A stretch of 64,000 nt of DNA from Flavobacterium lacus (GTDB taxonomy: Bacteria; Bacteroidota; Bacteroidia; Flavobacteriales; Flavobacteriaceae): contig NZ_QLSV01000007.1 of NCBI RefSeq assembly GCF_003268815.1, forward strand, positions 62,001-126,000, given 5' to 3'. A program made the translations under genes and the position numbers. The notes beneath the pieces were generated by a model. It was not told where the DNA came from, did not search any database, and saw nothing but the letters and a program-made list of their open reading frames with translations. Shown here piece by piece: positions 9,005 to 17,853 of the stretch. The stretch's first letter is position 1. The number at the start of each line of letters is the position of its first letter.

Positions 9005-10405
9005 TTATTCATTAAACTGTGGATTTGCTATCAACTTAAATAAATCTGAATTGGCCACAAAAAATCGAAACTCAACATCAATTTGTTGCAAGCTCGTGCT
9101 TAGCAAACTGTTTTCTCTAGTATTTATTAAGAACAACGAACTTTCTCCAAAAAAAAACATTCTTTCTTCGGCATTTAGCATCGTACTAAAATCATTAACC
9201 AATTCATTGGTAATTTCAATTTGACCTTTCAAGGATTTGATTTCTTCTAGTTGATAATCAATTTTATTTTTTAATACTTGATTTTCAAACTGTAAATCTA
9301 ATTCGGCATCTTGTAATTTCAATTTTGCTACCTTAAAATTTCCTCTTTCTTTTCTTAAAAACAAAGGAAAACTAAAATTCACACCATATTTATAATTCAC
9401 AGTATTAAAATCTCGAACAAATTCCGGTTCAGACAAGTAATTGTAGTTTAAATTGATGGTTGGCTTCAGCAAGTCGCCTTTTAGCCGTTTGTCAACTTCC
9501 AAAATGGAAACTTTATTTTGTAATGATCTAATTTTTGGGTGATTTTGAAAATCGATATCGGCCAATAAAAGGCCATTTGTTTTGAGCGTGTTTTCTACTT
9601 TTTTATCCAATTCGGTCTCTGGCGAAATACCTTCTTGCAATTCTAGTGGAAGATTATTTTCAAACCAAAGATAATTTGATAAGTCCAATTTCGACTTGAG
9701 TAATTTTAATCGGGACTGTTCTAAACTTAGTTTTCTTGATTTTACTAATATTCCTGCTTCAATGCTATCAATGGCCGGTCGGTCTCCCGCAGCTATTAAT
9801 CCTCTAATTCCGTTAAATCTAACCTCAGAATTTTTCAAAAAGGTTTCATACAATTTGTACTCATTATAATTTCTATACCAATTAAAATAGCTGTTTGCGG
9901 CAGCATAAAGAACATTAGCCACTTCTAAATCTCGTTCTGCTTGGGATAAATTGGTATAAATTTTAGCTTTTTTCAAATCAGCCATTCGGTTATTGATTAG
10001 TAAACCTTGCCCGATGGGAACAGAAATTCCGGCCATTGCCAAACCGTTTGTTGGAGTGTTGTTTTGCGGGTTTAAAAAAGTACCTTCCATTTGATCGAAA
10101 CCGGCTTTAATTTCAATTCCATACCAAGTCGGAATTTTAAAAGTGGTATTTAACAAATCATAATACTCTGTCGATTTGAATTGCTTGTTTTCGTAATCTA
10201 TTTCAATTTTAGGATCAAATCCGCCACGAGCAGCAATAATTCCGGCTTGAGCCTGACTAACTTCTAAATTAGCTTGCTTTACCAAGGGGTGAAATTGTTT
10301 AACATAGCCCAAGTAGGAATCTAATGTTAGAATAGAATCATTGGTCATGTTCTGCGACCATGAAAGCAAAGAAAATAATAATATAAATGGCAATATGCTT
10401 TTCAT
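9005..10405 (-). CDS. TolC family outer-membrane efflux protein
   Basis: This is the outer-membrane channel of a tripartite exporter, 466 residues with signal peptide MKSILPFILLFSLLSWSQ. It has the long helical, Gln/Asn/Leu-rich TolC character: two related halves with coiled segments such as YVKQFHPLVKQANLEVSQAQAGIIAARGGFDPKIE and a later copy (EVDKRLKGDLLKPTINLNYNY). The family expects a trimer spanning the outer membrane and reaching into the periplasm. It is last in the tetR-ABC-HlyD-TolC operon, six bases after the HlyD gene, so its partners are those two. Sequence is more divergent from E. coli TolC than usual but the family call is safe. Confidence 0.9.
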   Translation of the reverse strand: MKSILPFILLFSLLSWSQNMTNDSILTLDSYLGYVKQFHPLVKQANLEVSQAQAGIIAARGGFDPKIEIDYENKQFKSTEYYDLLNTTFKIPTWYGIEIKAGFDQMEGTFLNPQNNTPTNGLAMAGISVPIGQGLLINNRMADLKKAKIYTNLSQAERDLEVANVLYAAANSYFNWYRNYNEYKLYETFLKNSEVRFNGIRGLIAAGDRPAIDSIEAGILVKSRKLSLEQSRLKLLKSKLDLSNYLWFENNLPLELQEGISPETELDKKVENTLKTNGLLLADIDFQNHPKIRSLQNKVSILEVDKRLKGDLLKPTINLNYNYLSEPEFVRDFNTVNYKYGVNFSFPLFLRKERGNFKVAKLKLQDAELDLQFENQVLKNKIDYQLEEIKSLKGQIEITNELVNDFSTMLNAEERMFFFGESSLFLINTRENSLLSTSLQQIDVEFRFFVANSDLFKLIANPQFNE

Positions 10406-10411
10406 TTGGCC

Positions 10412-11758
10412 CTATTTTTTGGTTTCAGTTGTTTGTTTAGGGGTGTAAAAATCAGGTGGGAAACCATTCAGTTTTCGCCAAATTTCATACCATATCGGTA
10501 CATTGTCTAATAAAGCAAACGTCTGTGCACCGGCACCAATATTTAACTCTTTAGGCCATGGTTTGTCTTGCGGATCTTGTGCAATTAAAACCCTGTATTT
10601 TCCATTAATACTGATAAAATTTTCGATAGCAACAACTTTTCCGCCAAAGGTACCATAGGAGGAATTTGGCCAGCCGCTAAAAATGATTGTTGGCCATCCA
10701 TCAAACCAAATCCGAACATTTTCTCCCTTGTGAATTAGAGGCATATCTATAGGGTCTATAAATGTTTCTACTGCTATATCATATTTAGAAGGCATGATAC
10801 TCACAACCGGTGTTCCTTCTTTAATTGTTTCGCCGATTCCTGATTGAAGAGCTCGGTTTACGTAACCGTTTTGTGGTGCTTTTATATAATAAAGTTCATT
10901 ACGCATTTTATAATTGGTAACCTGATTTTGCAATTTATTTACCTGAGCTTCCGTGTCAAATTGGCTACTTAGTGCCGTAAAACGTTCGCTTTGAGCTTTT
11001 GAAGTTTTATCAGTATATTCTGCAGAAATCCTATTGATTTCTACCCGTGCGTTTATTAATTCATTTTTGGAGGTTAGGTATTTATTCTGTTGTGTTATTA
11101 TTTTTGCCTCGGCATCTTGAAGTTTCAATCGTTTCTCTTCTAAATCGGTCACCGCTTTTAGTCCTTCCTTATTTAAATCTTGTGAACGTTTAAATTGTAT
11201 TTGAGCAATTTTAAGCTGTGTTTTTACTGCTTCCAAATCCATACTGTCACTTTTTACTTTTAATTGTGACTGTTCTATTTTGTTTCTGGCTTGTTCTAGT
11301 TTTAGAATTCTTTCACGTTCAATCGCAGTAATTTGAGTTGAAAGTGAGTTGGCTTTTCCCTCATAAGATTCTTCCGAAAGCATCTTGGCTTTCATTTGAT
11401 TTTCTGTATTAGAAACAAGATTAGGGTCAAAGTAATCATCTTTTACCTCTGAAATGAATAAAATAGTGTCCCCTTTTTTCACATATTGGCCTTCGGCCAC
11501 ATACCATTTTTCAATTCGTCCGGCGATGGCAGTATGAATAGTTTGTGGACGTTGTTCAGGGGAAACGGTAGTAACAAACCCTGAACCTTGAATGTTTTGA
11601 GTCCAAGGCAAAAGCACAAATAAACAGCTCCCAATCATAAACCACATCAAAAGGCGATTGAATGTTTTAAAGTACTTTCTTTCACCAAGTTTTTGAATAG
11701 TTTTAAAGCGAGTTAAATTGACTTTGTCATTAATATTTTTTCGGGCGATGTTCAACAT
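10412..11758 (-). CDS. HlyD family periplasmic adaptor (membrane fusion protein)
   Basis: This 448-residue adaptor links the inner-membrane ABC protein to the TolC channel. A single membrane helix lies near residues 35-51 (LLMWFMIGSCLFVLLPW) after a short basic cytoplasmic tail. Then comes the first half of a lipoyl-like domain (IEKWYVAEGQYVKKGDTILF), a long coiled-coil hairpin about 125-290 rich in Lys/Glu/Gln, and the second half (YIKAPQNGYVNRALQSGIGE). A beta-barrel domain follows. The architecture matches adaptors of type I secretion and NHLM-type exporters rather than RND pumps. It is one base from the ABC gene and six from tolC. The cargo is unknown. Confidence 0.9.
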   Translation of the reverse strand: MLNIARKNINDKVNLTRFKTIQKLGERKYFKTFNRLLMWFMIGSCLFVLLPWTQNIQGSGFVTTVSPEQRPQTIHTAIAGRIEKWYVAEGQYVKKGDTILFISEVKDDYFDPNLVSNTENQMKAKMLSEESYEGKANSLSTQITAIERERILKLEQARNKIEQSQLKVKSDSMDLEAVKTQLKIAQIQFKRSQDLNKEGLKAVTDLEEKRLKLQDAEAKIITQQNKYLTSKNELINARVEINRISAEYTDKTSKAQSERFTALSSQFDTEAQVNKLQNQVTNYKMRNELYYIKAPQNGYVNRALQSGIGETIKEGTPVVSIMPSKYDIAVETFIDPIDMPLIHKGENVRIWFDGWPTIIFSGWPNSSYGTFGGKVVAIENFISINGKYRVLIAQDPQDKPWPKELNIGAGAQTFALLDNVPIWYEIWRKLNGFPPDFYTPKQTTETKK

Positions 11759-11759
11759 A

Positions 11760-13430
11760 TTAGTTCGTGTCTGAAATTAATTTTCCTTTATCCAATGTTA
11801 TGATTCGATCACATTTTTGCTTCCAGTACTCATTTTTAGATGTTACTATTAAGGTCCAATTGTTTTCTTTGGAAAGTATAAAATCGATGATTTCTCTACT
11901 TTCATCCTCGTCCATTTTATCGAAGGGATTTTCCAAAAAGAGAACCAACGGATCATTTACAATTGCTCTGGCCAAAAGAATTTTTTGTGCCAACGATGAG
12001 GGTAATTGTTTTCCTTCGGTTAGAATTTTTTCGTCTAATCCTTTGGGCATCTTTTTGATTACTTCGGTTAACTTAATTTTTTCCAATACTAATTTTAATT
12101 TTTCAGTTGAAATGGTTGGATTTCGAAATGTAATGTTTTCCAAAATGGAACCTTCAAAAAGCGTTTGACCTTCTGTAATAATGCCGATTTGGGCACGATA
12201 CTGTTCAATGTTTATTTTGTTATATTGTTCGTCATTAATATAAATGGAACTTCCATTGCTGTGAATCAAGCCTGCTAAAATTCGTAGCAAGGTTGTTTTT
12301 CCTGAGCCGTTCTTTCCATCTAAATATATTTTTTCTCCCTGATTGATATGAAACGAAACTGCGTTTAGAATTTTTTTGTTTGAATCAGGAAAAACAAAAT
12401 TTAATTCATCAATTTCAAAATGAACATTTTTATAACAGTAGGTACTTTCATGTGTTTCAAACTCTTCAATTTCCATATCAACCACCTGACCAATTTTTTC
12501 GATGGAGGTTAAGACATCATAAAAAGTTTCTAATCCAACGATGATTTTTTCGACCGAATTAATGACCAATAAAATGATGATTTCGGCAGCTACAAATTGA
12601 CCGATGTTTAATTGTTGGTTGATAACTAAATAACCTCCAATAAGCAATAAACCAGCCGAAATTAATGCCTTAAAACCAATTAATTGAATGAATTGTCGCT
12701 TGATTACTTCAAAGTGACTCTCCCTGGATTTAAGGTATTCGCTTACCAATTTATCATTTTTGGTTAGGGCAAACTCTGCCTCAGTTTTATTTTTAAATCC
12801 AAAGTAATTTCGTGATATTTCTTGAATCCAATGAGCGACTTTATATTTGTATTTGGATTCGGTTAAACTCGTTTTTAGTCCAACTTCAAATGATACACGA
12901 AAGATTAAATAGAGTACTATAAATAGCAATAAACCAAACATAATAAACAACGGGTGATAGACAGAAAGTAAGAGTAGCCCAAAAATGATTTGTAGAATAG
13001 ATTCAGAATAATCCATGATTAATTTGGCCACACTTTTTTGTACTGTGATTGTGTCAAAAAAACGATTGGCTAATTCCGGAGGATAATTGTTGTGGAATTC
13101 GGTATATTTAATTTTTGGAAAACGATAGGAAAATTCAAAAGACGAACGAATGAATATTTTTTGTTGAATTGTCTCCGTGATACGTAATTGCATCAACTTT
13201 AAAATCCCATTAAAAACGACCCCTAAAATTACAATAACCACTAAAATAATCCACGATAAGCTAACTCTTCCGCCTTGAATAAGGTTGATGATGGCTTGGA
13301 TTCCTAAGGGCAGTGATAGGCTAACAAGACCCGAAAAAATTGCGTAAAAAAACACTTGATAAATGTCTTTTTTATCTAACTTTAAAAGATTAATAAAGCG
13401 ATTTAAAGGTGATTTTGATGCTTTTTCCAT
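11760..13430 (-). CDS. ABC exporter half-transporter with degenerate ATPase motifs
   Basis: This 556-residue protein has an N-terminal six-helix exporter domain (about 25-300) and a C-terminal nucleotide-binding domain. Walker A is intact (GKNGSGKTT, 372-380). The rest is unusual: the Q-loop Gln is replaced by Glu420, the LSGGQ signature is replaced by PSSLA (477-481), Walker B ends LEN in place of LDE (Asp to Glu500, catalytic Glu to Asn501), and the H-loop His is Ser531. There is no C39 peptidase domain at the front. Nucleotide binding is likely, canonical hydrolysis doubtful. It sits between tetR and the HlyD and TolC genes, so it should power or gate that exporter. Similar degenerate sequences occur, from memory, in other Bacteroidetes, so it is probably a conserved subfamily and not decay. 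Confidence 0.88.
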   Translation of the reverse strand: MEKASKSPLNRFINLLKLDKKDIYQVFFYAIFSGLVSLSLPLGIQAIINLIQGGRVSLSWIILVVIVILGVVFNGILKLMQLRITETIQQKIFIRSSFEFSYRFPKIKYTEFHNNYPPELANRFFDTITVQKSVAKLIMDYSESILQIIFGLLLLSVYHPLFIMFGLLLFIVLYLIFRVSFEVGLKTSLTESKYKYKVAHWIQEISRNYFGFKNKTEAEFALTKNDKLVSEYLKSRESHFEVIKRQFIQLIGFKALISAGLLLIGGYLVINQQLNIGQFVAAEIIILLVINSVEKIIVGLETFYDVLTSIEKIGQVVDMEIEEFETHESTYCYKNVHFEIDELNFVFPDSNKKILNAVSFHINQGEKIYLDGKNGSGKTTLLRILAGLIHSNGSSIYINDEQYNKINIEQYRAQIGIITEGQTLFEGSILENITFRNPTISTEKLKLVLEKIKLTEVIKKMPKGLDEKILTEGKQLPSSLAQKILLARAIVNDPLVLFLENPFDKMDEDESREIIDFILSKENNWTLIVTSKNEYWKQKCDRIITLDKGKLISDTN

Positions 13431-13432
13431 GG

Positions 13433-14104
13433 TTAGTTAATCTGTTTTAAAACCAAAGTTTTGAAAAATTCTGTTGGCGTAATTTCTTCGGTGCAATCTG
13501 TTATCGATGTAAAATGACTTTTTAAAAAATGTTGGTGCAAAGCTCCTTCTACAACCGTTGAAATTAAACTTTTTGCATAGGGAAAAGTTGGGTTTACCTC
13601 TTTTACCATCTCGATCATTCGATTAATTACACGTTTGTAAATTAAAAAATAACCCTCTTTATTTTCTTCATCTACTTCCTTCGTTAAATAGGATTTCGAA
13701 AATTCACAGATAATAATCTTATTCAAGAGCATTTCGTTTATGTGCGGATGGTTACTGTCGGTCATAATTTCCTCAGTAACAATTTCAATTCCCCTTATTA
13801 ATTTATCCTGAGGATTAGCAATACTATTGGTGGCTAGCACTAATTTGAATTCAATCCAACCCCAATACCACGACGTTAAATAGAGCAAAAGCTTGTGTTT
13901 ACTCTCAAAATACCGGTATATGGAACTTTCATTAGAGCCAATCCGTTGACCTAATTTTTTGAAAGTAAAATTATCAAAACCAATTTCATCAATCAACAAA
14001 ATACTATTTTCTAGAATTTTTTTTCCTAGTTCTGATGTCTCCGGGTCCTTGACATAGATTTTAGGGCTAATGTTTATTTTGATGCCATTTAAAATATTTT
14101 TCAT
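13433..14104 (-). CDS. TetR/AcrR family transcriptional regulator
   Basis: This 223-residue protein has an N-terminal TetR helix-turn-helix: SILLIDEIGFDNFTFKKLGQ followed by RIGSNESSIYRYFESKHKLL, where the recognition helix SSIYRYF is diagnostic. The C-terminal ligand-binding part (about 90-223) is not recognisable as a known class. It is the first gene of the exporter operon, two bases before the ABC gene, so it should repress its own operon and respond to an exported compound. The promoter region at 14136-14158 carries a 17-base palindrome that is a natural operator candidate. Confidence 0.92.
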   Translation of the reverse strand: MKNILNGIKINISPKIYVKDPETSELGKKILENSILLIDEIGFDNFTFKKLGQRIGSNESSIYRYFESKHKLLLYLTSWYWGWIEFKLVLATNSIANPQDKLIRGIEIVTEEIMTDSNHPHINEMLLNKIIICEFSKSYLTKEVDEENKEGYFLIYKRVINRMIEMVKEVNPTFPYAKSLISTVVEGALHQHFLKSHFTSITDCTEEITPTEFFKTLVLKQIN

Positions 14105-14259: not shown

Positions 14260-17200
14260 CTACCGCTTCAAACTAAAATTAGACCTAAATTCTTGTTTAA
14301 TTCCATCTTTTGTATAAACTGCTTTAAACCAATAATCATCGGATGGCATTGGTTTTCCGTTGAATGTGCCATCCCAGCCGTTGCCATTTTGCCCAATTTC
14401 TTTTAATAGTTTTCCATAACGATCAAAGATATAAATGTGGTTGATTTGGATAATGGGTGAACCAATCACTTTCCAAGTATCATTGAAACCATCTCCATTC
14501 GGCGTAAAAAAGATTGGAAAATCTAACACGGTAAAAGTGGTACTGATTTCATCACAACCAAATTTATTGCGAACACGTAATACAAAATCACCGGCAGGAA
14601 TGTTAGTAAAAACTGGACTATCTTGCCATAAATCAGGAATAATAGAATATTCATAATCTAACGAAACAGGGGTTGCCGTTGCGGTTATCATATTTTGATT
14701 TTCAAATCCGATTAAGTTTTGTGGTGAAACCGTCACAGCATCCGGAGCCAATGTTTTTATCGTTGTAAAGTTGAAAACACTTGAACAAAGTGCCACATTT
14801 GAAGTGTTTGTGATTAAAACAGAAAAATTGCCTTCAATGTCAGTTGAAAATGTGCTTGATGATTCTCCTGAAATTTCATTTCCCGGAAGAGCTTCAAATG
14901 CGGTAAACCATTCAAAAGTATAATCGGTTTCATTTAATAATGTCCTGATGTTGGCTTCTTTCAAAATGTTTCCGTTTTCATCAACACAAATATAGTAAGG
15001 AAATGTTCTCAAATTATTTTCAGGAAACGGACGAACATAAAGGTCTAATGCTAAAACTCGAAAACAAGCCAGTCCGGTCTCGCTATCAAAATTGGTTGTA
15101 CTGGTTACGCGAACATAAATTGTTTGAAAATCACTAACAGTATTGGTGAAAGTTGCTGGATTTTGAATGAAACTGTTGCTGTTGTTTTGAGCATCTGAAA
15201 AATTTTGATAGTATCGGATAACGATATTATTCAAGTTTGAAGGGCCCGCAATTTCAGTGATTCGCTCGGTTAAATCAAAAGCATAAAATCCGCTATCGTC
15301 GCACCTTTCAATAGGAGCAGGGTTGTTTAAACTTCCGGGAATTGTTACTACCGCTAAACTTAAACTGGTGATTGAAAAACAATTATTATTGGTTGGATCA
15401 ACTACTTTTACAAAAATTGTGTTTGTGCTTGATTCATAAGCATTCGGTTGTGTTATAAAATTATCTGCCGTTAAATCGGCTTGCGTTTCATAATAAAAAA
15501 CTTGGTAATTGATATTGCCTCCTGTAATTTGATTATTTCTGCGTGTTAAATCAAAAGTAGAAACCGTATCGCCACAAATTGAAATTTCATTCGGTGTAAA
15601 AATAATCGGATTCGGAAAAACTGCAATTGAAAAATTTACAATCGAAAAGCATTGCGTTGCAGTATCAAATAAACGAACAAATAGTTCATTATTGCCAACC
15701 GGAAAAGCTTGTGGAATATTTTTATTCAAAGCTGCAAAATTACTTTCTGCCAATTGAAATGTGCTGAAATAAGAAGTTTGAACGGTTGGATTTTGGTTTA
15801 ACAATCCTTCTGCATCAAAACTATTTAACACGACCGTTTCATTTTCACAAAGTGCGATCGAATTAATGCTGTTTTGTAGTGGAGGGGTTTTAATTTCCAC
15901 TTGAAATGTTCCCACCCCTTCACAAATATTATTGGTTTCAATGCGTGTGTAAATGGTTTGAATGCCAATTGGTACTTGCGATAAATCAGTTAATTGGTTT
16001 GTTTTTACGGAGGCATCTATGTCCGTTAAATAAAACGTAATTTCAACTGGATTTCCTCCAAAAAAAGAATTTCGAATGCTATTTTCTTGGAACGAAAAAT
16101 TTACTAATCCATAATTTTGATTTACAACCGGACAAACAGAAGCCATGTCAGGATAAGTAGACAAACTTGTTGGATTTACAGTTAAAGCTATTGTGGCAAC
16201 CGTGGTGGAGGTGCAATTTGGAATTACATTCTCATTAACAGCAATGACATAAATGGTTTGATTGGTTGTTGTGTTAACAAAAGCCTCCGGAGTTAAAATT
16301 TGTTGTGTTAATCCGCTATCTAAAAAATAAAATAAAGTTAGACCGGTAACATTATTTGTAATTTCATCATACGCTTCGGTTAAATTGGTTGTGGCAATTC
16401 CGTCGTTGTTGGGAGTAATGTAATCGCATTGTTCGATTATTATTGGATTTGTATTTAATACCGGAACTGGATTTATTTGAACGGAAACAGAATTAGAATT
16501 GCCAATGCAAATTCCTTCCTCAGTAACTTCTAAATAATAAGTTTCAGTTGAATTGTTTGTTTGAATTGCAGTTGAAACAATTAATGTTGGTGTATTTTCA
16601 CCTGAAAGCAGATTATTATTTTGATACCATTGATATGTTATATTAGTCAAATTTCCGCTATTAGCAATAGTGGAAGTAATCGTAAAACTATCATTATCAC
16701 AAATCGAAGCATTATCCAAAATACTAACTTGCGGTGTGGCATAAATAAAAATGGAATTAGAAATAACTTCATTACAACCACCGTTTTTTACACCTAAATT
16801 GTATTTTCCGGGAAGAGTGGGTGTAAAACTATTATTGGAAATGCCAGAAACAGGTACATCATTCCTATACCATTGATAAATTGGATTGTCAACCAAAAAA
16901 TCAAATTGGTTCTGATTCAAAATAGTGCCTTGTAAAACGGGATTAGAACTTAAACATCCTGCTGCTGCGGTATTCTGTATCGAAACATCCGGTAAAACAA
17001 AAAATTTTAATTCAATTTCAGCCTCACTAACAGGTAAATTAGTTAAATCAACGGTTGGATCAGTACTGTCATAAGCTGTTGTTTCAACCCGATAAGTGCC
17101 AGTTTCCGCTATGTTTGCCAACGTATTCGTGCTTTGAGTACTATTATTAATTGTCGTTAGGAAAACATTGTTGCGAAACCAAGTATAATTAAAACGTAAA

Positions 17201-17853
17201 TCGTTGACATTGCCGTCAAAATCAGTAACATCAATTGTTGCGGTTATACTTTTTGTTTCCGGTTTACAGTATTCTGTTTGTGTTATTTCGTTTCCGCTAT
17301 CATCAGTAATTTCCACCGAAGATAAAAAGCTACAATCAGAACTTCCGGTTCCACCGATTTGAGTGATGGTAATTTGTCCGGGAACATTGGAATAATTGTC
17401 TATTAACAAGACATATAATTGTCCGGTTTGTCCGTTTGGAATCGTAACAATTTCAACACTTGCCGGTAGCCAACTGCAATCTACTTCATTGTTTATGTTT
17501 AATTGACTACAGACATTCGATAAGTCGTTAAAAGGACCCCAAAGCACAAAATCTACATCCGTGCCATTCCCGTTATTGTTTACTTGATTTATTTGCAGGA
17601 CAATTTCTCCCGGTGTTTGTATTTGAATAAAAAACCAAGTTGGACCTTGAAAATTTTGCTCGATACACGTAGTGTTAAACGTTTCTCCATTTCCGCCTAC
17701 AGAATTCTGAAAAGGAATACTTGTGGCACAAGATTGATACGCTTCAAAATTTGCTTGAAATTCTGCACATGAAGGGGCTCCTCCTTGGGCAAGAGTATTT
17801 TGAACCAGAAAAATCCAAAACAGAAATAAAACCTTATGTATAGATTTTAACAT
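14260..17853 (-). CDS. Large surface protein with type B (gliding-associated) T9SS sorting domain
   Basis: This 1197-residue protein has signal peptide MLKSIHKVLFLFWIFLVQNT...AQ. The N-terminal region (about 25-175) resembles a secreted jelly-roll or pre-peptidase-type domain (PTWFFIQIQTPGEIVLQI). The middle has Ig-like modules and then at least four modules of about 100-120 residues that each contain a TIYVRV-like strand (QTIYVIAVNEN, QTIYTRIETNN, NTIFVKVVDPTNN, QTIYVRVTSTTN). The last 90 or so residues are the gliding motility-associated C-terminal domain: FFTPNGDGFNDTW, IYIFDRYGKLLKEI, GWDGTFNGKPMPSDDYWF. This domain sends the protein through the type IX system to the surface. A role in adhesion is likely but unproven. 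The ATG is 3 bases after gpmI, so it is probably co-transcribed. Confidence 0.92.
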   Translation of the reverse strand: MLKSIHKVLFLFWIFLVQNTLAQGGAPSCAEFQANFEAYQSCATSIPFQNSVGGNGETFNTTCIEQNFQGPTWFFIQIQTPGEIVLQINQVNNNGNGTDVDFVLWGPFNDLSNVCSQLNINNEVDCSWLPASVEIVTIPNGQTGQLYVLLIDNYSNVPGQITITQIGGTGSSDCSFLSSVEITDDSGNEITQTEYCKPETKSITATIDVTDFDGNVNDLRFNYTWFRNNVFLTTINNSTQSTNTLANIAETGTYRVETTAYDSTDPTVDLTNLPVSEAEIELKFFVLPDVSIQNTAAAGCLSSNPVLQGTILNQNQFDFLVDNPIYQWYRNDVPVSGISNNSFTPTLPGKYNLGVKNGGCNEVISNSIFIYATPQVSILDNASICDNDSFTITSTIANSGNLTNITYQWYQNNNLLSGENTPTLIVSTAIQTNNSTETYYLEVTEEGICIGNSNSVSVQINPVPVLNTNPIIIEQCDYITPNNDGIATTNLTEAYDEITNNVTGLTLFYFLDSGLTQQILTPEAFVNTTTNQTIYVIAVNENVIPNCTSTTVATIALTVNPTSLSTYPDMASVCPVVNQNYGLVNFSFQENSIRNSFFGGNPVEITFYLTDIDASVKTNQLTDLSQVPIGIQTIYTRIETNNICEGVGTFQVEIKTPPLQNSINSIALCENETVVLNSFDAEGLLNQNPTVQTSYFSTFQLAESNFAALNKNIPQAFPVGNNELFVRLFDTATQCFSIVNFSIAVFPNPIIFTPNEISICGDTVSTFDLTRRNNQITGGNINYQVFYYETQADLTADNFITQPNAYESSTNTIFVKVVDPTNNNCFSITSLSLAVVTIPGSLNNPAPIERCDDSGFYAFDLTERITEIAGPSNLNNIVIRYYQNFSDAQNNSNSFIQNPATFTNTVSDFQTIYVRVTSTTNFDSETGLACFRVLALDLYVRPFPENNLRTFPYYICVDENGNILKEANIRTLLNETDYTFEWFTAFEALPGNEISGESSSTFSTDIEGNFSVLITNTSNVALCSSVFNFTTIKTLAPDAVTVSPQNLIGFENQNMITATATPVSLDYEYSIIPDLWQDSPVFTNIPAGDFVLRVRNKFGCDEISTTFTVLDFPIFFTPNGDGFNDTWKVIGSPIIQINHIYIFDRYGKLLKEIGQNGNGWDGTFNGKPMPSDDYWFKAVYTKDGIKQEFRSNFSLKR

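Follow-up and report, generated by a model that had tools for sequence, protein, structure and literature searches.

A gene in a 64,000-nucleotide stretch of Flavobacterium lacus DNA (contig NZ_QLSV01000007.1, positions 62,001 to 126,000; hereafter the window, to which all coordinates refer) encodes a half-transporter with the fold of an ATP-binding cassette (ABC) exporter and a degenerate nucleotide-binding domain (NBD). The gene (11760..13430, minus strand; ATG start, intact open reading frame, 556 amino acids; Pfam ABC_tran 1.7e-21) belongs to a family across which the catalytic residues have been lost under purifying selection. One clade of the family has lost the entire NBD, keeping the transmembrane domain (TMD), HlyD and TolC genes together, and a second branch, found in sphingomonads, has lost the P-loop. 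It is very unlikely that the exporter is driven by ATP hydrolysis, and the ABC-fold protein is quite probably still part of the HlyD-TolC conduit. The reading as a whole, namely the inner-membrane part of a HlyD-TolC exporter that abandoned ATP hydrolysis as its motor and is now powered by an ion gradient, is given about even chances here. In the literature searched, no paper was found that describes the family as having a dead ATPase or as lacking the NBD.

Loss of the catalytic motifs across the family

To read the motif positions, the protein was aligned with five further ABC exporters encoded in its genome, which served as controls together with ComA and PCAT1. The protein comprises a TMD (12480..13409, residues 8-317, bounded by the AlphaFold2 (AF2) helices), the only part matched by the NBD-less homologues, and a degenerate NBD (11766..12419, residues 338-555), all on the minus strand, as are the motifs below. 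Walker A (GKNGSGKTT, 12291..12317, residues 372-380) is intact, as originally predicted, and the alignment to the control exporters confirmed that Glu420 (12171..12173) replaces the Q-loop Gln. The predicted loss of the LSGGQ signature also stands, although its earlier reading as PSSLA was one residue off, the actual replacement being LPSSL (11991..12005, residues 476-480). The proposed LEN in place of LDE at the end of Walker B was borne out within VLFLEN (11928..11945, residues 496-501) and involves two substitutions, Walker B Asp to Glu500 and catalytic Glu to Asn501. The H-loop His is lost as well, but it is Lys532 (11835..11837) that aligns with it, whereas Ser531, named in the original prediction, aligns with the Ser/Ala preceding the His. 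The D-loop Asp507 is retained. Lys378 is the only one of the nine canonical residues checked that survives in the window protein, compared to 8, 9, 8, 9 and 9 residues in the five control exporters.

Homologues were collected from a sample of relatives (34/60 genomes, E <= 1e-60), from GTDB contigs (80 loci kept of 121 encoding a relative), from a phylum sample (99/392, E <= 1e-40), and, using the TMD as query, from an order sample (245/292) and a family sample (89/201), both at E <= 1e-25. Complete NBD-bearing genes were present in 184 stretches and yielded 180 distinct proteins for motif scoring; six stretches whose gene was cut by their ends, among them L272 at a contig end, were left unscored. 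Among the 180 proteins the Walker A Lys is kept in 178, the Q-loop Gln in 22, the Walker B Asp in 21, the catalytic Glu in 47 and the H-loop His in 14, and catalytic Glu and His are both missing in 131. Both exceptions for the Walker A Lys belong to the Bacteroidota sample; L183 no longer has Walker A, and in L251 the Lys is gone. The S-G-G of the signature is found in none (0/180), L159 and L160 reading LSTGQ.

The original prediction asked whether the substitutions recur in homologues, which they do, beyond chance, and named homologues with canonical LSGGQ, DE and His as the refuting case. Canonical homologues were sought, and none of the 180 has nine of nine; the maximum is seven, in two proteins, and eight proteins (L155, L156, L158-L161, L165 and L185) keep the Walker B Asp, the catalytic Glu and the H-loop His together. 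In close relatives dN/dS is about 0.02-0.07 for the TMD and about 0.02-0.10 for the NBD, the NBD evolving faster in 31/36 comparable pairs, although these ratios are rough because many dS values exceed 1. The NBD is thus under purifying selection, apparently not for hydrolysis; N432, R488, G427 and G464 are also conserved within it (31 representatives). The losses in 180 distinct homologues and the dN/dS ratios rule out a single damaged gene. The earlier view of a conserved exporter subfamily, in which decay is unlikely, is supported by the kept gene order, the low dN/dS and the recurrence of the same losses in nearly all homologues.

A clade without nucleotide-binding domain

In the phylum sample, six matches spanned only about residues 4-336 of the query, and the genes retrieved for such matches have frames of 334-360 amino acids. 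Loci consisting of the TMD only numbered at least 56 in 54 genomes of the order sample and at least 45 in 44 genomes of the family sample, adding up to at least 101 loci in at least 98 genomes with open frames of 334-394 amino acids; a stop inside the matched stretch was present in three rows of the family sample and in two of the six phylum-sample rows. The NBD-less genes that were fetched have frames of 333-360 amino acids. In 76/77 of the fetched stretches, some loci having been fetched twice, HlyD lies directly downstream, and where there was room of at least 3.2 kb both HlyD and TolC were found in 26/27. The exception in both counts is L273, a 320-residue TMD frame whose HlyD was not recognised by the model and which is probably a broken full-length copy. 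L273 was classed as NBD-less by script, yet it was excluded from the test of the most recent common ancestor and from the conserved-residue counts, leaving 63 distinct proteins from the 77 stretches. The NBD-less frame of L146 ends 66 bases ahead of HlyD, and in L149 the ABC and HlyD genes overlap. An assembly or frameshift artefact is ruled out by the presence of such genes in at least 98 genomes with HlyD overlapping or directly following. For L146, L149 and L150 the only Pfam match at E <= 0.01 was ABC_membrane, with no match to the SbmA/BacA family. Two NBD-less loci per genome were seen in G900 (L269, L270), G556 (L253, L254) and G711.

In a FastTree phylogeny of the TMD, all 63 NBD-less proteins group in a single clade (0.999). 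In an IQ-TREE analysis of 80 taxa, the 19 NBD-less proteins included received a support of 99, rising to 100 with the degenerate L244 and again 100 with six more degenerate NBD-bearing members (26 taxa). The NBD-less clade is thus nested among already degenerate members, from which it follows that motif decay preceded NBD loss. The HlyDs of the NBD-less loci also form one clade (76 tips including duplicates, 0.985, in a tree rooted on the more canonical loci). With the HlyD of L038, those of six NBD-less loci share 41-45% identity and those of four degenerate loci 43-52%, whereas the figure is 34-35% in L155 and L165, which are more canonical. The NBD-less genes have dN/dS values of 0.03-0.23 overall, those of one genus (L149, L187-L190) being higher (0.09-0.23) than those of the other NBD-less genus compared (0.03-0.06).

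The sister NBD of L244, used to search 11 genomes with NBD-less members, revealed no family NBD elsewhere above background: the best match had an E-value of 7.8e-28 (a 626-residue frame), against 2.2e-160 for the positive control. The matches were no stronger than those to other ABC proteins, and some of them were stand-alone NBDs at 5e-16 or weaker. An NBD supplied in trans was accordingly rejected for these 11 genomes.

The sphingomonad branch

The same gene order was found on sphingomonad plasmids, sphingomonads accounting for 15 of the 22 plasmid records matched. Five sphingomonad proteins were read (L276, L279-L282); all five have lost Walker A and the other motifs, and in all five loci the adaptor and TolC genes adjoin the ABC-like gene in an annotated three-gene order. 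Two of these proteins were placed in the tree and fall within a 67-taxon clade of the family (support 100). Three of the five, all without P-loop, carry the record label "ABC transporter ATP-binding protein", so that the current annotation conceals the loss of the ATPase. A sphingomonad operon listed as an ABC pump ("HlyBD2-OMP2") in the available part of PMC9505733 was not used here, as the nearest relative given there has a different accession from the gene that was read.

Structure and candidate coupling residues

The AF2 models of the window protein and of the NBD-less L149 (pLDDT 89.6 and 90.3, respectively) match ABC exporters over nearly their full length, and both are predicted to have the six-helix TMD fold of ABC exporters. 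The Foldseek comparison of the window model with HlyB in the HlyB/HlyD complex (8dck_A) gave a TMq of 0.92 at 2.4 A root-mean-square deviation (rmsd), and the structure match with the best E-value was PrtD (5l22_B). For the NBD-less model, 8dck_A gave a VIA Z score of 26.9 (327 residues, 2.8 A), on a par with TmrAB (27.7) and others. The 50 matches listed in each of the two structure comparisons of this model do not include SbmA, which is uninformative either way.

Two acidic residues stand out in transmembrane helix 6 (TM6). Glu283 (12582..12584, minus strand) has an acidic residue at its position in 63/63 NBD-less proteins, in 8/8 of the more canonical NBD-bearing proteins and in 172/172 of the other NBD-bearing ones, and Glu in 5/5 sphingomonads. 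In the five controls this column holds Ile, Val, Thr, Ala and Val, and in ComA and PCAT1 Asn. Based on the helix bounds of the model (TM6, 276-317), Glu283 should lie in the membrane. Glu294 (12549..12551, minus strand) follows 11 residues, or three helical turns, further on; its column is acidic in 63/63 NBD-less proteins, in a fraction of 0.99 of the 172 and in 8/8, and non-acidic in the five controls. Within the NBD-less set conservation peaks in the stretch from intracellular loop 1 (ICL1) to TM3 that contains the NRFFD motif (0.87) and in TM6 (0.81). The clearest relative fall is in the coupling segment of ICL2 (0.50 in the NBD-less against 0.56 in the degenerate set), the NBD-less set being more uniform nearly everywhere else.

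Energy source of the exporter

The original prediction offered slow hydrolysis with ATP binding, or another mode of gating. The first alternative is only half supported. The Walker A Lys is kept in 178/180 NBD-bearing relatives, so that nucleotide binding may matter in these, and its retention suggests that ATP is still bound for regulation or for structural reasons in window-like members. Hydrolysis as the motor, on the other hand, is unlikely because the NBD is missing from one large clade and the P-loop from the sphingomonad proteins that were read. The second alternative fits better. An ordinary slow ATPase, in which the changed residues are compensated in the native complex and slow hydrolysis still drives transport, could draw on two elements that the window protein retains, Walker A and D-loop Asp507, and on the relatives with Asp, Glu and His (8/180). 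It is nevertheless highly improbable, given that the window protein retains neither Walker B acid and lacks the H-loop His, the Q-loop Gln and the signature, and that a related clade dropped the NBD altogether while retaining the gene set.

ATP could also act on a gate only. CFTR and SUR are gated by ATP binding with no need of productive hydrolysis, and in a comparable facilitator binding alone would close the NBD dimer and open a passive path for export down the substrate gradient; in NBD-less members the path would be permanently open, or HlyD or the substrate would gate it. The near-invariant Walker A Lys amid drifting catalytic residues and the conserved N432, R488, G427 and G464 speak for it, as does the D-loop mutant of ABCB2 that, according to the available part of PMC7756269, made ABCB2/B3 a nucleotide-gated facilitator. 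However, nearly all members have lost the signature motif, by which the partner's ATP site is completed, the NBD-less and P-loop-less proteins are unable to use ATP in this way, and Glu283 is left unexplained, so we regard this explanation as unlikely.

We favour an ion-gradient-driven exporter that descends from an ABC exporter resembling those of type I secretion. The inner-membrane component would be a homodimer whose TMDs alternate access powered by an ion gradient, most likely by proton antiport. Protons would be coupled through the family-wide Glu283 in TM6, aided in Bacteroidota by Glu294 and other membrane charges, and the substrate would leave through HlyD and TolC. In window-like members the NBD may persist as a structural or ATP-binding regulatory domain that is no longer the engine. 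Proton-driven export in particular is favoured because of SbmA, a relative of ABC TMDs that has no NBD, is driven by protons and carries a glutamate ladder. According to the available part of PMC13316013, it shows that such a TMD can become proton-driven via membrane glutamates once the NBD is lost; even so, we place it slightly short of an even chance.

Several points weigh against the ion-driven reading, in addition to the roughness of the dN/dS ratios. Glu294 is absent in 5/5 sphingomonads and has a Glu counterpart in the ATP-driven ComA, and the two sphingomonads checked also lack Glu86, Asp140 and Lys254; because these three residues and Glu294 are missing there, the family appears to have no full SbmA-like ladder. 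A Glu in TM6 would by itself be no proof of proton coupling. ICL1, which faces the NBD in ABC exporters, is highly conserved even in the proteins that have none, which is unexplained. Since the Walker A Lys is kept in 178/180 and the NBD is under purifying selection, this domain appears still to have a job in NBD-bearing members, and slow hydrolysis would be compatible with their sequence. According to the tree, moreover, NBD loss was one event, so that its dispensability rests on the NBD-less clade, the sphingomonads and L183. Finally, several deep nodes of the tree are weak (support 54-72), which makes the order of residue losses uncertain.

ABC transporters are defined by their ATPase, and this family let the ATPase die and then dropped it while fold and HlyD-TolC genes were kept. 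The stages are found in living species: a partly canonical NBD, a dead NBD with P-loop, an NBD without P-loop and no NBD at all. The transition from primary to secondary pump, and what a TMD can do alone, become directly testable in this family.

Gene run and neighbourhood

As originally noted, HlyD and TolC genes accompany the intact ABC gene in the operon. All lie on the minus strand, behind a TetR gene. The run begins with the intact TetR-family regulator (13433..14104; Pfam TetR_N 1.2e-08), and the ABC gene is followed by the HlyD-type periplasmic adaptor (10412..11758, 448 amino acids, intact; HlyD_3 6.5e-09, TIGR01843 4.6e-26 but under its cut-off) and the TolC-family outer-membrane channel (9005..10405, 466 amino acids, intact; OEP 2.6e-33). 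A 1197-residue secreted protein (14260-17853), with a C-terminal domain that looks by eye like those of gliding or type IX secretion proteins, is encoded directly upstream of the operon. The genome (3.53 Mb) holds one member of this ABC family and many other ABC proteins, and the F. orientale counterpart of the window protein is 90% identical. ABC_membrane scored 3.7e-05 (24 bits) on the window protein, under the Pfam cut-off of 28. Its best NCBIfam score was that of TIGR03375, 204.2 bits against a cut-off of 693.1, so that the threshold for type I secretion is not reached. Residue 11 already aligns to position 139 of TIGR03375, which leaves no space for an N-terminal C39 or C39-like domain, presuming the location of that domain within the model. 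N-terminal extensions of 150-260 residues before the TMD occur in L152-L158, L161, L165, L182, L185 and others, comprising more canonical and some other members. They lie outside the coverage of the type I secretion models and had no Pfam match in the three scanned (L154, L157, L165).

The three-gene order ABC-HlyD-TolC is conserved, with HlyD and TolC in 116/119 NBD-bearing loci with room; one or both were missing by the models in L162, L165 and L246. Among 159 diverse stretches, the only recurrent neighbours were HlyD, TolC and often TetR (a TetR-type cluster in 86/159), and the search for an extra operon gene found none, a sensor-kinase cluster (27) and a resistance-nodulation-division (RND) cluster (10) being scattered. 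Heavy-metal RND pump genes (CusA/CzcA-like by eye) lie near L150, L151, L255, L262-L264 and L268, on either strand and side.

Retention of HlyD and TolC in 142/146 loci with room (116/119 and 26/27), together with RND-type pump genes near 7/26 NBD-less stretches (L273 excluded; L149 and L256 are the same locus), could mean that the ABC-like protein is a scaffold, which no longer transports and only anchors and assembles HlyD and TolC, these two serving another transporter or acting as a duct. We consider this rather unlikely, as the side and strand of the RND neighbours differ between loci, and TM6 is among the best conserved regions with Glu283 invariant, which a scaffold does not obviously need.

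The presence of other exporters with intact motifs in the genome would allow the degenerate subunit to pair with a canonical half-transporter encoded elsewhere, as in TM287/288 and TmrAB. The window operon, however, has a single ABC gene, and an NBD-less subunit cannot supply half of either ATP site. Another ABC frame was found within 6 kb in only 7/267 stretches, many of which have short flanks; five of these frames are 161-287 amino acids long, and the two long frames, in L112 and L267, encode tandem NBDs with no TMD and are of ABC-F type by eye. Such a heterodimer is improbable. The tandem-NBD gene lies downstream of the operon in one of the two cases and upstream in the other.

Comparison with known systems

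In fold and gene order the family is closest to type I secretion, and in evolutionary path to the SbmA/BacA-like peptide transporters (SLiPT); it belongs to neither. Of the features of type IV ABC exporters, the window protein has the predicted six-helix TMD and an NBD with Walker A, but lacks the hydrolysis motifs, namely Q-loop Gln, LSGGQ, Walker B Asp-Glu and H-loop His. The type I secretion ABC transporters (HlyB, LssB/LapB and NHLP exporters) share the fold, the HlyD/TolC gene order and the best NCBIfam score (TIGR03375). The family differs in the score (204 against a cut-off of 693), in that the window protein leaves no space for a C39-like domain, and in catalytic motifs that are gone or an NBD that is absent. 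In the tripartite pumps of the major facilitator superfamily and RND types (EmrAB-TolC and AcrAB-TolC, respectively), an adaptor and TolC serve an inner-membrane pump that is not ATP-driven. A non-ATP drive is likewise proposed here, but the inner-membrane part has the fold of an ABC exporter. The family might represent an additional energy class among tripartite exporters, in which what was once an ABC pump became a proton-driven secondary transporter and kept its HlyD-TolC duct, a proposal that we make tentatively and rate somewhat below an even chance.

Loss of the catalytic Glu, the H-loop His or the signature is shared with the ABC exporters with one degenerate site (TM287/288, TmrAB, TAP, Pdr5 and CFTR), as covered in the available part of PMC7756269. 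These keep a second, canonical site, whereas here the sole ABC gene of the operon is degenerate save Walker A and the D-loop, or has no NBD.

With SLiPT, as far as the available part of PMC13316013 describes them, the family shares an ABC exporter TMD without NBD, acidic TMD residues, and extant NBD-bearing relatives (YddA/BclA for SLiPT, the degenerate members here). Only the NBD-less clade agrees in the first respect, since the window protein has an NBD. Candidate counterparts of the SLiPT glutamate ladder are the conserved Glu283 and Glu294. According to the same source, in which SbmA is not mentioned together with HlyD or TolC, SbmA imports peptides and its coupling helices are lost, whereas in this family HlyD and TolC are kept, members with a dead NBD survive, and short helices at 114-117 and 214-218 are predicted in the NBD-less AF2 model. 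If the ion-driven reading is true, the family would be a second conversion of an ABC transporter into a secondary transporter beside SbmA, this time in the export direction and with its intermediates extant.
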